From the NCBI GenBank assembly GCA_022792835.1, contig JAAWBT010000026.1, positions 1 through 64,000 of the forward strand: a stretch of 64,000 nucleotides of DNA. Direction: 5' to 3'. This document shows, piece after piece, positions 23,066 to 57,277 of the stretch. The notes under the pieces were generated by a model that saw only the letters and a program-made list of their open reading frames with translations, did not search any database and was not told the origin of the DNA. Position numbers and translations under genes: made by a program. Every line of letters starts with the position of its first letter. Position 1 is the first letter of the stretch. The stretch is from Lachnospiraceae bacterium. GTDB lineage: Bacteria > Bacillota > Clostridia > Lachnospirales > Lachnospiraceae.

Positions 23066-24295
23066 TTATGACTTCAACAATGCTTTATGGTACACTTTTT
23101 TACCTTTTCGGATTTTCACGCCGTCTATAAGTTTTTCTGCGGTCACTTTGGTATCCAGAGTGGCCTTTTCGCCGTCCACAGTGACGCCGCCCTGGGTGAC
23201 CAGCCGTCTGGCCTCACTTTTTGTGGGCGCCAGCTTGCAGGCCATCATCAACTCCAGGATACTGATAGCGTTGTCTGTAAGCTGCTCTTTCGAAAGCTCT
23301 GTGGAAGGCATTCCTTCTTCATCCCCGCCGCCTGCAAAAAGCGCATGGGAAGCCTGCTTTGCTTTGTCGGCCTCTTCTTTACCGTGAACCAGGCCGGTCA
23401 GCTCATAGGCCAGAATCTCTTTGGCTTCGTTTAACTGGCTGCCTTCCCATTTGTCCATCTTGTCAATCTCTTCCAGAGGGAGGAAAGTCAACATGCGGAT
23501 GCACTTTAACACATCGGCGTCGCCGGTGTTTCTCCAGTACTGATAAAATTCAAAGGGTGAGGTCTTATCGGGGTCAAGCCATACGGCACCTTTTGCAGTC
23601 TTGCCCATTTTTTTGCCTTCGGAATTCATGAGGAGAGTAATGGTCATGGCGTAAGCATCTTCATTTTCCGTAGTCTTCTTGCGGATTAACTCCGTTCCGG
23701 CCAGCATGTTGGACCACTGATCGTTACCGCCAAACTGCATATTACAGTCGTAATGCTGGTGCAGGTAGTAGAAATCATAAGCCTGCATAATCATGTAATT
23801 GAACTCCAGGAAGCTTAACCCTTTTTCCATGCGCTGTTTGTAGCATTCGGCCCGGAGCATATTGTTGACGGAAAAACAGCCGCCTACCTCCCGCAAAAGC
23901 TCCACGTAATTCAGCTTTAAAAGCCAGTCCGCATTGTTCACCATGACGGCCTTGTCAGGACCGAACTCGATAAAACGCTCCATCTGTTTTTTGAAGCAGT
24001 CACAGTTGTGGTCAATGGTTTCTTTGGTCATCATGGAACGCATATCAGTCCGCCCTGAAGGATCCCCCACATGGCCAGTGCCGCCGCCGATTAAGACGAT
24101 GGGTTTGTTTCCGGCCATCTGGAGCCGTTTCATCAGGCAGAGCGCCATAAAATGTCCTACATGGAGGGAGTCAGCAGTGGGATCAAAGCCGATATAAAAC
24201 CGGGCGCTGCCGTTATTAATGAGCTCTCGGATTTCCGGCTCGTCCGTCACCTGGGCGATCAGCCCTCTGGCCTGTAATTCTTCATAAATTTTCAT
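23066..24295 (-). CDS. tyrS: Tyrosyl-tRNA synthetase
   Basis: GFDPTADSLHVGHF (HIGH-like), QFGGNDQWSN, KMGKTAKGAVWL (KMSKS-like), C-terminal S4 domain. Confidence 0.96.
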   Translation of the reverse strand: MKIYEELQARGLIAQVTDEPEIRELINNGSARFYIGFDPTADSLHVGHFMALCLMKRLQMAGNKPIVLIGGGTGHVGDPSGRTDMRSMMTKETIDHNCDCFKKQMERFIEFGPDKAVMVNNADWLLKLNYVELLREVGGCFSVNNMLRAECYKQRMEKGLSFLEFNYMIMQAYDFYYLHQHYDCNMQFGGNDQWSNMLAGTELIRKKTTENEDAYAMTITLLMNSEGKKMGKTAKGAVWLDPDKTSPFEFYQYWRNTGDADVLKCIRMLTFLPLEEIDKMDKWEGSQLNEAKEILAYELTGLVHGKEEADKAKQASHALFAGGGDEEGMPSTELSKEQLTDNAISILELMMACKLAPTKSEARRLVTQGGVTVDGEKATLDTKVTAEKLIDGVKIRKGKKVYHKALLKS

Positions 24296-24378: not shown

Positions 24379-24704
24379 AAAAAGTCCCCTGTCCTTTCGG
24401 ACAGAGGACGAATGGAGCATTCGCGGTACCACCTCTTATTTAGGAAGTCCTCACAGACTTCCTCTTATGAAGAATGGCTGAATCATCCTGGGGATTGTGT
24501 CAGCATATTCTTCTGTGCGATAACGGACACTTCCGACCGGCCCTAGTGATCTCCCTTTTTCTATAAATTAAGGAGCTGTTCAGGCGGGCGGCTCTAAGAT
24601 GTATTCAGACTGGGACCGCCTGTATCCTTCCACCAAACGGATACTCTCTGGGAAGCGGGAAAACCAGCTTACTTTTTCTCGTCAAAGCCTTTATATATTG
24701 GTTT
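24379..24704 (-). promoter_or_regulatory. T-box leader (Tyr) upstream of tyrS
   Basis: Minus strand AGAGGTGGTACCGCG T-box motif, GAATACATC specifier region (TAC = Tyr), terminator tcctctgtcc-gaaa-ggacaggggacttttt. Confidence 0.9.
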
Positions 24705-24839: not shown

Positions 24840-25391
24840 ATGAGCGAGGTTTGGATTGACAAAGAACTACATGAAGGGCGGCCTGCCCCTGAGGGGCGGC
24901 TTCCCAAAGAGATGCGGGTTTATGACCTGCTTGACAAGTTAAAGATCCCTTATGTGCGGATTGATCACGGCGTGACGCCGTCCATTGAAGCCTGCCATCA
25001 GGTGGATGAGATCCTGCACATTGAGATCTGCAAGAACCTGTTTTTGTGCAATGCCCAGAAGACAGATTTTTATCTGCTCTTGATGCCGGGAACAAAAAAG
25101 TTTAAGACAGCGGTATTGTCAAAGCAGATCGGCACTGCAAGGCTTTCCTTCGGGCCGCCGGAATATATGGAAGAGTTTCTGGATATCACTCCTGGCTCCG
25201 TCAGTGTACTGGGGCTGATGAATGACCATGACAGGCGGGTGAAGCTTCTCATCGACAAAGAGGTGCTTGAGGAGCCGGAGCTTGGCTGCCATCCCTGCAT
25301 CAATACCTCCAGCCTGCGGATCGCCACGAAGGATATTCTGGAGAAGTTTCTGCCTTATACGGGGCATACCTACAGGGTGGTGGAGCTATGA
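24840..25391 (+). CDS. YbaK/ProX-type aminoacyl-tRNA deacylase (prolyl-tRNA editing family)
   Basis: YDLLDKLKIPYVRIDHGVTPSIEAC, KNLFLCNAQKTDFYLLLMPG, GSVSVLGLMND, GCHPCINTSSLRI. Confidence 0.85.
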   Translation: MSEVWIDKELHEGRPAPEGRLPKEMRVYDLLDKLKIPYVRIDHGVTPSIEACHQVDEILHIEICKNLFLCNAQKTDFYLLLMPGTKKFKTAVLSKQIGTARLSFGPPEYMEEFLDITPGSVSVLGLMNDHDRRVKLLIDKEVLEEPELGCHPCINTSSLRIATKDILEKFLPYTGHTYRVVEL

Positions 25392-26503
25392 GCAGCTCCT
25401 GGATTTTTGAGGGTATGGAGGTTCTGGAACGGGAGGACGAGCCTTTATCGTTCGAAGAGAGGCTGCAGGCAGCGGCAGAGCCGCTTCTTTCCTGGTTCCG
25501 GAAACATGCCAGAGTCCTGCCCTGGCGGGAGGACCCCACGCCTTACCATGTGTGGATCTCAGAGATCATGCTGCAGCAGACCCGGGTGGAGGCGGTCAAA
25601 GACTATTACAGACGGTTTCTGGAGGCCCTTCCTGACATTCGGTCTCTGGCCGAAGTGCCGGAAGAGCGGCTTTTAAAATTGTGGGAGGGGCTTGGATATT
25701 ATAACCGGGCCAGAAACTTAAAGAAGGCGGCTGCCATTGCCGTATCCAGTTACGGCGGAGAACTTCCGGCATCCTACGAAGAGCTTCTTTTGCTGCCGGG
25801 AATCGGAAGTTACACGGCAGGAGCCATTGCCTCCATCGCCTATGGGATTCCGGAACCGGCAGTAGACGGGAATGTACTGCGGGTTGTATCCAGACTTTTG
25901 GCAGCCAGAGAGGATATTCTGAAACAGTCGGTCAAGAGGCAGATGGAAGAACTTCTGCGGGCAGTCATGCCAAAGGATGAGGCCGGCTCTTTTAACCAGG
26001 CCCTTATGGAGATCGGAGCGATGGTCTGTGTGCCGAACGGCGCACCACACTGTGGTGAATGTCCTCTGAGGGGACTTTGCCTGGCAAGGCGAGGGGGACT
26101 TACGGAAGAAATTCCGGTAAAAACTCCGAAAAAGGCGAGGGTGATTGAGGAAAGAACGGTTTTTGCCGTCAGGAGGAAGGGGCAGGTGCTCCTTCATAAA
26201 AGGCCGGAGAAAGGACTTTTGGCCGGACTTTATGAGCTTCCGGGAACACCGGGATATCTGGAGCTTTCCGAGGCCCTTGACTGGCTGGGAGTGGAAGCGG
26301 GACAGGTGGAGCTTATGGAAGCGCTTCCGGATGCAAAGCATATTTTTTCCCATGTGGAGTGGAGAATGAGAGGGTATTATATCCTTTTGAGAGAGGGAAC
26401 AGAGACGAAGGAGGGGTTTTTTGCCGACAGGGAGAGTGCACGGGAGACTTATGCTCTTCCCGGCGCTTTTAAGGCTTATGCAAAGTATCTCTTTGAGAGT
26501 TAG
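25388..26503 (+). CDS. mutY: A/G-specific adenine glycosylase
   Basis: LPWREDPTPYHVWISEIMLQQTRVE, LPGIGSYTAGAIASIAY, CGECPLRGLC; NUDIX-like C-terminus. Confidence 0.95.
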   Translation: MSSSWIFEGMEVLEREDEPLSFEERLQAAAEPLLSWFRKHARVLPWREDPTPYHVWISEIMLQQTRVEAVKDYYRRFLEALPDIRSLAEVPEERLLKLWEGLGYYNRARNLKKAAAIAVSSYGGELPASYEELLLLPGIGSYTAGAIASIAYGIPEPAVDGNVLRVVSRLLAAREDILKQSVKRQMEELLRAVMPKDEAGSFNQALMEIGAMVCVPNGAPHCGECPLRGLCLARRGGLTEEIPVKTPKKARVIEERTVFAVRRKGQVLLHKRPEKGLLAGLYELPGTPGYLELSEALDWLGVEAGQVELMEALPDAKHIFSHVEWRMRGYYILLREGTETKEGFFADRESARETYALPGAFKAYAKYLFES

Positions 26504-26589: not shown

Positions 26590-26618
26590 TTGATTTCTAA
26601 AAAATGCCATGATATAGT
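26590..26618 (+). promoter_or_regulatory. Sigma-A-type promoter upstream of the intergenic repeat array
   Basis: TTGATT-17-TATAGT. Confidence 0.6.
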
Positions 26619-26627
26619 CAAAGTACA

Positions 26628-26774
26628 GACATCTTAGGCGACATCAACAGAGACACCAGTGCAGACAGCAAGTATGCATCTTGGCGGACTTTAGGGAGAC
26701 ATCATAAGCGGACTAAAAAGAGGACATCATAAGTGGACAGCAAAGGGAGACATCGTAAGCAGACTAAAAGAGCG
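26628..26774 (+). repeat. Degenerate tandem array of about 12 units of 11-13 nt beginning with GAC
   Basis: GAC at 26628, 26640, 26652, 26664, (GCATC at 26676), 26687, 26698, 26711, 26723, 26736, 26749, 26762; best copies GACATCATAAGCG/GACTAAAAAGAG/GACATCATAAGTG/GACATCGTAAGCA. Confidence 0.75.
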
Positions 26775-26813
26775 TATTGACAGACACAGATGGAATGACG
26801 AGACGAAAAACAC

Positions 26814-26854
26814 AAAAAGGCAGGGCGGTTTCCAAATGGCTGTCCTGTCTTTTT
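26814..26854 (+). terminator. Terminator-like hairpin closing the repeat unit
   Basis: aaaaaggcagggcg-loop-tgtcctgtcttttt (with G-U pairs). Confidence 0.55.
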
Positions 26855-26921
26855 GATGCACACGGGGCAGAGAGGAAAATGCTGCTGGGCGCCTGCCCAT
26901 AATCACTATGATGGAGGAACT

Positions 26922-27743
26922 ATGAAATACAAATTGCTGGCAACAGATTTGGACGGAACTCTTGTGACAGAGGATAAAAGAGTCACAGAGAGGACAAAAC
27001 AGGCAGTGAAGGCTATGATCAGCCGGGGAGGGACCTTGGTACTTTCCTCCGGGCGGCCAAGCTACGGCGTATGGCATGTGGCGAAGGAACTGGAACTTCC
27101 GGAACTTGGCGGATATATTCTTTCTTATAATGGTGGAGAGCTTTTAGACTGCAAAAGCGGAAAGGCAGAATTTTCTGTCCAGATACCTCCAGATAAAATT
27201 CCTGAGATTATTCATCTGGCAAGGGAACATAAAACGGCGATTCTTACTTATGAGGAAGAGTATATCATAAGTGAGAACGGCGACGATCTTTATGTGCTGG
27301 GGGAAGCAAGAAATACCAGGATGAAAGTAAAAGAGGTTCCGGACCTGATCTCCTATGTGACCTTTCCGATTGTCAAGATGATGATGGTGGGGACAGAAGA
27401 GCAGATCCTTAAGCTGGAGCCTGTGGTGAGAAAGGCCCTTGGGCCGGAATTTTCCGTGTTCCGCTCAGAGGCGTATCATCTGGAGATCCTTCCCGCGGGA
27501 GTTGACAAAGGAAGCGGACTTTTGAAAACGCTGGAATATCTGGGGATTTCCAGAGAGGAGACTATTTCCTGTGGAGATTATGACAATGATATTCCTATGA
27601 ATGAGGCGGCAGGACTGGGGGTGGCCATGGAAAACGGATGTCCGGCTATCAGGGAGAAGGCCGATTATATTACCTGTTCCAACGAGGCGGACGGAGTCGC
27701 TGTTGTCATTGAAAAATTTGTGCTGGGGGAAGAAGGATCATGA
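26922..27743 (+). CDS. Cof-type HAD-IIB family hydrolase
   Basis: YKLLATDLDGTL, LSSGRPSYG, CGDYDNDIPM. Confidence 0.93.
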   Translation: MKYKLLATDLDGTLVTEDKRVTERTKQAVKAMISRGGTLVLSSGRPSYGVWHVAKELELPELGGYILSYNGGELLDCKSGKAEFSVQIPPDKIPEIIHLAREHKTAILTYEEEYIISENGDDLYVLGEARNTRMKVKEVPDLISYVTFPIVKMMMVGTEEQILKLEPVVRKALGPEFSVFRSEAYHLEILPAGVDKGSGLLKTLEYLGISREETISCGDYDNDIPMNEAAGLGVAMENGCPAIREKADYITCSNEADGVAVVIEKFVLGEEGS

Positions 27744-28512: not shown

Positions 28513-29067
28513 ATGGCAAGAAAGAATTGGAAGCTGATTCTGTGCGCAGTTTTTGCTTTCGCGCTGGCGGGGCTTGCTGCCTGCGGGGACAAAGAGAGCA
28601 AGGATGTTGTGAAGTCGACAAACGCAGTGGAGACAGAGGCGGTGGAGACAACTGCCGCTGAGACAAAGGCGGTGGAGACAAAAGCTGCCGAGACAACTGC
28701 CGCTGAGACTCAGGCCGAAAGCACGGCTGACAGCGGAAAATTCGCTACGGTCGCAGAGTTTGCGAATTCTGAGGAGGTTCAGAGCGAGCTGGCAGCACAG
28801 AAGAAGAGCCTTGAAGGATCCGGTATGGACATCGCGATTACAGGGGAAGATAATAAGCTGATTTACACCTTTACCTATCTGGAGATGGAGAACCAGGAAG
28901 GGATGGCAGAGGCGCTTCAGCAGGGACTGGAGGCTGAGAAAACCACATTTTCCGGTGTGGCGAAATCCATTAAGCTGGCTGTGGATGTGGAGAATCCTGT
29001 AGTGGTGGTCCGCTATTTAGATTCCACCGGAGCGGAGATTTATTCCGCAGAATTTACAGCAGAATAA
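28513..29067 (+). CDS. DUF4854-like lipoprotein with Ala/Glu/Thr repeat linker
   Basis: Lipobox LAACGDK; VETEAVETTAAETKAVETKAAETTAAETQ repeats; FATVAEFANSEEVQSEL. Confidence 0.75.
   Translation: MARKNWKLILCAVFAFALAGLAACGDKESKDVVKSTNAVETEAVETTAAETKAVETKAAETTAAETQAESTADSGKFATVAEFANSEEVQSELAAQKKSLEGSGMDIAITGEDNKLIYTFTYLEMENQEGMAEALQQGLEAEKTTFSGVAKSIKLAVDVENPVVVVRYLDSTGAEIYSAEFTAE
28621..28715 (+). repeat. 15-bp-period coding repeat in the lipoprotein linker
   Basis: gcggtggagacaactgccgctgagacaaaggcggtggagacaaaagctgccgagacaactgccgctgagact. Confidence 0.8.
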
Positions 29068-57030: not shown

Positions 57031-57212
57031 AATATGGGTTCTGGCAAAGGTTTAATAGCTGGAGCGTTTTCCAGAGGAGAATGAAAAGGGAATGCAGTGT
57101 GAATCTGCAGCAGCCCTCGCTACTGTATAGGGGACAGACTATTCGAGCCATTGGCGGCTTGCCGCCGAGAAGGGAATAGGAAGGATGAATCTAAGCCAGG
57201 AGACCTGCTTTT
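57031..57212 (+). promoter_or_regulatory. Cobalamin (B12) riboswitch
   Basis: AAAAGGGAATGCAGTGTGAATCTGCAGCAGCCCTCGCTACTGTA ... AGCCAGGAGACCTGC conserved core. Confidence 0.92.
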
Positions 57213-57277
57213 TTGCAAAATATGTATTATTTTCGATGGGAAAATACGTGCATTTGTTGAACTGGGAGTGGTTTCGG

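Follow-up and report, generated by a model that had tools for sequence, protein, structure and literature searches.

CsrB/CsrC and RsmX/Y/Z are intergenic small RNAs that carry a short motif in series, end in an intrinsic terminator, and are thought to act by multivalent titration of a protein; in CsrB and RsmZ the motif is GGA, displayed in hairpin loops. ToxI and AntiQ antitoxins also consist of a tandem-repeat RNA followed by a terminator, and the repeats of ToxI fold into pseudoknots. Oligomeric proteins such as TRAP and HutP bind serially to RNAs in which short motifs are regularly spaced; the TRAP motif, (G/U)AG, recurs every ~5 nt within a leader. Bacterial tandem repeats of constant size and variable sequence, with units of 20-21 or 52 nt, have been described as DNA repeats (Subirana and Messeguer, PMC8161180).

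The locus considered here lies within a window of 64,000 nt (the whole stretch of DNA analysed) from a Lachnospiraceae draft genome (G000, 84.5% complete), between mutY (25388-26503, + strand; HhH-GPD and NUDIX_4 in Pfam) and a HAD hydrolase gene (26922-27743, + strand; Hydrolase_3, Pfam PF08282, E 1.6e-60). As an analogy, the Csr/Rsm sponge RNAs are its nearest functional counterpart. Unlike CsrB and RsmZ, its array has GACANC at 12-nt steps without hairpin display, bacteria that lack csrA also have it, and it shows no enrichment of GGA; as two defining features of the Csr/Rsm class were tested and are absent, the RNA is kept out of that class. In comparison with ToxI and AntiQ, the unit is about one third as long and has no pseudoknot, and no toxin gene adjoins it. 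The repeats of PMC8161180 similarly keep their length while varying in sequence, but the present unit is only ~12 nt long and is located inside a promoter-terminator unit. The regular spacing recalls TRAP and HutP targets; unlike the TRAP leader, a stand-alone RNA here carries GACANC at intervals of ~12 nt. Little is known of the small RNAs and RNA-binding regulators of Lachnospiraceae, a dominant group of the gut, and a dozen copies of one motif point directly at the binding site of a partner, which could offer a route to a new regulator.

The array between mutY and the HAD hydrolase gene

The sequence-only reading had listed GAC at 26628, 26640, 26652, 26664, 26687, 26698, 26711, 26723, 26736, 26749, and 26762, with a decayed unit, GCATC, at 26676, and every one of these sites was found in the sequence. 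The array (26628-26774, + strand) comprises about 12 units of 11-13 nt with the core GACANC, two of which read GACTAAAA. Treated as a phased GAC chain (steps of 11-13 nt, one skip allowed), it has 11 members in the 310-nt mutY-HAD gap, as against a longest chain of 5 and a mean of 1.6 in 5000 dinucleotide-preserving shuffles; the runner-up chain across the 64-kb window has 5 members. A CM matches the array at 26628-26676 (E 8e-8) and at 26698-26754 (E 2e-12). The higher-order dimer of ~25 nt claimed earlier was recovered independently by Tandem Repeats Finder (26696-26769, + strand, 2.9 copies, score 92). The reported lack of a sensible ORF also held, the array having no + strand ORF of at least 30 aa and a step of 11-13 nt; a coding repeat was rejected on ORF content and step length.

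A sigma-A type promoter, TTGATT-17-TATAGT (26590-26618, + strand), was recovered by a consensus scan as previously claimed, with an extended -10 (TG) besides. As 0.7 such matches are expected by chance, support for the promoter rests on its conservation: it hardly varies across the 11 species of the genus. The predicted small RNA of ~230 nt would span 26625-26854 (+ strand), judging by promoter spacing and the terminator, and this block is conserved in ten relatives. Towards its 3' end, an A-rich, near-invariant module, ACGAGACGAAAAACACAAAAAG (26798-26819, + strand), lies just before and at the base of the terminator stem and is conserved in all species, reading ACGAAAAACACAAAAAGGCAGGGCG in the genus alignment; matches to the pattern running from ACGAAAAAC into the stem are confined to the window's genus among the 85,462 species scanned. 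The intrinsic terminator hairpin, AAAAAGGCAGGGCGG...CTGTCCTGTCTTTTT, ends in TTTTT and is seen both in the sequence and in the genus alignment; it occupies 26815-26854 (+ strand), within one base of the earlier placement at 26814-26854, and was missed by a consensus terminator scanner because its loop exceeds 8 nt. The second pair of its stem is G-U, A-U, or G-C, depending on the species, and the presence of an A-run and a T-run suggests that the terminator is possibly bidirectional.

Behind a terminator-like hairpin, the window carries a further element, TGATGCACACGGGGCRGAGAGGAAAATGCTGCT...GCCTGCCCC (26854-26899), with a possible outer GGGGC/GCCCC stem, an inner stem, and a purine-rich bulge. 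It recurs in the genus (L002 and L003 of the same genome; L021 and L025 in G004; L022 in G010) and has no Rfam match.

A DNA search detected the array-bearing element in 10 of the 10 other genomes examined in the genus, with 69-87% identity over varying parts, and in all 11 species mutY and the HAD gene flank it. Among the named members of the genus are Fusibacillus kribbianus and two Candidatus Paralachnospira, so that the prediction is testable in sequenced named isolates, e.g., F. kribbianus. In the alignment, promoter, array, 3' module, and terminator are kept together in 11 of 11 species. A loss of the repeat phasing in close relatives had been named as evidence that would refute the small RNA; the register is kept in all ten relatives. 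The arrays contain about 3 to 13 units with a mean step of 12.3 nt (s.d. 1.0), and a decayed core leaves a gap of about two or three units (e.g., 23-26 nt). The array starts within ~10 nt of the -10 box in 10 of the 11 species; in G003, an insertion of ~70 nt separates the two. Scored against the window unit, GAC has a conservation of 0.66-0.71, the three bases that follow 0.49-0.55, and the linker 0.25-0.47, a pattern that selection on the core and the register would be expected to produce.

With its own promoter and terminator, both conserved in relatives, the locus has the make-up of a stand-alone small RNA gene. Rfam yields nothing at the gathering score in the array region (the best sub-threshold hit is SR1, 17.9 bits vs 45), and the array is undescribed in the open-access library searched. 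The comparison of sequences gives good support to the structure of the gene, its conservation, its strand, its register, and its lack of coding function. Very probably the locus is a real, undescribed gene for a stand-alone, non-coding small RNA rather than a HAD leader. The repeat-bearing ncRNA of ~230 nt proposed by the sequence-only reading is supported by the conserved promoter-array-terminator unit, the recurrence of similar units elsewhere, and the lack of an Rfam match; the sponge role, proposed along with it, is a conjecture.

Arrays in other Lachnospiraceae genera

The pattern GACATC x3 was found in 19 of 397 Lachnospiraceae genomes. The reversed control pattern matched a comparable number of genomes, so that the pattern by itself proves nothing. 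None of the 21 reversed-motif control arrays is non-coding (all lie inside ORFs of at least 112 aa; 21 genomes examined), whereas 8 of the 19 GACATC triplet loci fall outside long ORFs and 11 inside. Further arrays came to light with R1, a model that spans four to five units and uses sequence only. Non-coding GACA-N-C arrays with 11-15-nt steps are present in at least six other genera (g55, g111, g261, g349, g72, and g134), in gene contexts that differ from that of the window's array; in the search with R1, most sampled Lachnospiraceae have no detectable array. Like the array of the window, those of other genera have no match in Rfam.

Several of these arrays are equipped with transcription signals. 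In g55 (two species), the element directly follows mutY: a TATAAT -10 box immediately precedes ~5 units, and a terminator comes next. The array of g72 combines TTGACA-18-TATACT with 3-4 units. The four species of g111 examined in sequence have TTGACA-17-TATACT, then a hairpin, the array, and a terminator. Two arrays are present in g261, one behind an AraC-type response-regulator gene and the other behind a glutamine synthetase gene, and the array of g349 is located behind a trmB-like gene. In g134, 20 near-identical units are situated between csrA and fliW (G143, L285, about 1938-2190). Wherever a promoter or terminator is recognisable, the array lies on the transcribed strand. The core keeps A at position 4 (0.60-1.0 per genus) and C at position 6 (0.67-1.0), an agreement that is partly circular because the motif served to find the loci; the search made no use of strand, promoters, terminators, or non-coding position.

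Some individual arrays have features of their own. The g111 RNA (L288, L289, and L290) has a terminator-like hairpin and TTTTTT just past the promoter, and two complementary stretches lie close to its ends, ATAATACC on the 5' side and GGTATTAT on the 3' side; they might form a long-range closing stem, which all four species examined retain. The two separate GACANC arrays of g261 occur in a single genome (G270; L281 and L286), and the one behind the glutamine synthetase gene has GACAGC units with an 11/12-nt alternation. The units of G143 read GACATCAGAGCG, with GGA in nearly every unit.

A mutY neighbour is common to the window's array and those of g55. No array was seen downstream of mutY in 28 other loci inspected, including loci of genera closer to the window's; because these closer genera lack the array, shared descent of the mutY-linked position is unsupported, and the MutY tree gives no support for common ancestry of the two. 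AlbA/HTH-like genes with GACATCTTGAGT repeats (L040, L046, and L048) were set aside as coding or lying beside coding copies. Plasmids and phages gave no match for the array; among the matches listed for viral contigs, many are plain GACATC microsatellites.

Proposed titration of a protein and competing explanations

We favour a stand-alone small RNA gene that acts by multivalent titration of an RNA-binding protein, with a probability of about 0.48 on the sequence evidence; for the titration mechanism taken alone, the odds are about even. The sigma-A promoter would start a transcript of ~230 nt almost at the first GACAUC unit, and the intrinsic terminator would stop it before the HAD gene. The body of the RNA would be a largely unstructured string of ~12 copies of the ~12-nt unit with the core GACANC, each offering a single-stranded site to one molecule, or to a single domain, of a putative RNA-binding protein present across Lachnospiraceae. 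One transcript could then titrate many protein molecules off mRNAs, as CsrB and RsmZ do with CsrA. Here we infer transcription, a bound protein (its existence as well as its identity), and titration; as a candidate partner, KhpA/KhpB or another protein with a KH domain is no more than a lead. Many short sites in a fixed register, on a single strand and in variable number, are what a multivalent RNA that titrates a protein would show. Most array bodies are less stable in folding than their dinucleotide shuffles (z >0 in 19 of 21, with one value as low as 0.03), and the genus alignment reveals no conserved fold beyond the terminator and no conserved unit hairpin. The full transcript is neither more nor less structured than chance (z -0.62), and the cores are only slightly more often unpaired than the linkers (0.55 vs 0.48), which counts against the model. 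Upstream of genes in 1.57 Mb of the host genome, GACATC occurs 10 times vs 5.9 expected and GACAGC 9 times vs 8.2; GACANC is thus not clearly enriched, a point against a large regulon. That a GACANC-reading protein together with fast-evolving titrating arrays constitutes an unrecognised global post-transcriptional system of Lachnospiraceae is a tentative and rather doubtful extension, as is the quick evolution of copy number and position that it assumes for the arrays; if true, the system would be a Csr/Rsm counterpart in major gut bacteria.

Known small RNAs use short repeated single-stranded motifs as seeds, and a trans-acting, base-pairing RNA or RNA sponge, in which the repeated GACAUC would be a seed for GAUGUC in mRNAs or a small RNA, agrees with the accessibility of the array in the folding comparison. 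This alternative is nevertheless unlikely: position 5 of the core takes T, G, C, or A, which suits protein recognition better than strict base pairing, and the antisense targets proposed earlier show no enrichment in the same 1.57 Mb of the host genome, GATGTC being found upstream of genes once vs 5.4 times expected (a deficit that may reflect avoidance of upstream ATG). Somewhat less probable is a DNA-level element or near-neutral minisatellite, i.e., protein-binding DNA sites or slippage products that are transcribed incidentally. Unit number varies strongly across species, the nearly homogeneous array of G143 resembles a young minisatellite, and oligomeric DNA-binding proteins can bind direct repeats; however, the ~12.3-nt step lacks helical phasing, the linkers diverge while the cores are kept, the array is tied to a conserved promoter and terminator in 11 species, and the arrays of other genera lie on the transcribed strand. 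That the array closely precedes the HAD start on the same strand fits a regulated 5' leader for this gene (an attenuator), which the sequence-only reading had also offered. Such a leader is disfavoured, and highly improbable, because a conserved terminator intervenes and no conserved antiterminator was seen, and because in other genera the arrays are followed by unrelated or convergent genes. Tandem-repeat RNA with a terminator downstream would also fit a ToxI-like RNA of a type III toxin-antitoxin system; the repeats of ToxI are about three times longer, and the neighbours encode a DNA glycosylase, a HAD hydrolase, a PHP-domain protein, and a DUF4854 protein, with no ToxN-like nuclease gene among the five neighbouring genes in Pfam, which leaves this explanation barely credible.

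A sponge for CsrA in the manner of CsrB and RsmZ, with GGA in units such as GCGGACAUC as the binding site, is very unlikely. It gains some weight from csrA being encoded in the host genome and in 11 of 20 other genomes tested, from the position of the G143 array, and from the GGA-poor arrays of csrA-less genera outside g1. Besides the host, 6 members of the genus have csrA and 4 lack it. Arrays persist without csrA in G002 (a 100% complete genome) and in g261, g55, and g349; the window RNA contains 7 GGA vs 7.4 expected from dinucleotides, with similar values in relatives; the base preceding GAC is not conserved; and the sites are not in hairpin loops. The correlation of csrA presence with GGA-rich or long arrays is weak and involves very few independent events; on the MutY tree, the longer arrays of csrA-positive genus members yield no more than about two contrasts that are independent. 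CsrA was therefore rejected as a general partner, as arrays occur without csrA and GGA is not enriched; the G143 array is possibly a special, CsrA-related case. A Rho-binding array, considered for the ~12-nt step, was rejected because the GACAGC units lack YC.

Other elements of the window

The window also contains a T-box leader (24401-24694, - strand) upstream of a tyrosyl-tRNA synthetase-like gene (23066-24295, - strand), and a cobalamin riboswitch (57050-57226, + strand). At 28617-28709, a DUF4854 lipoprotein-like gene holds a 15/45-nt in-frame repeat that encodes a Glu-Thr-rich linker and is an ordinary coding repeat.
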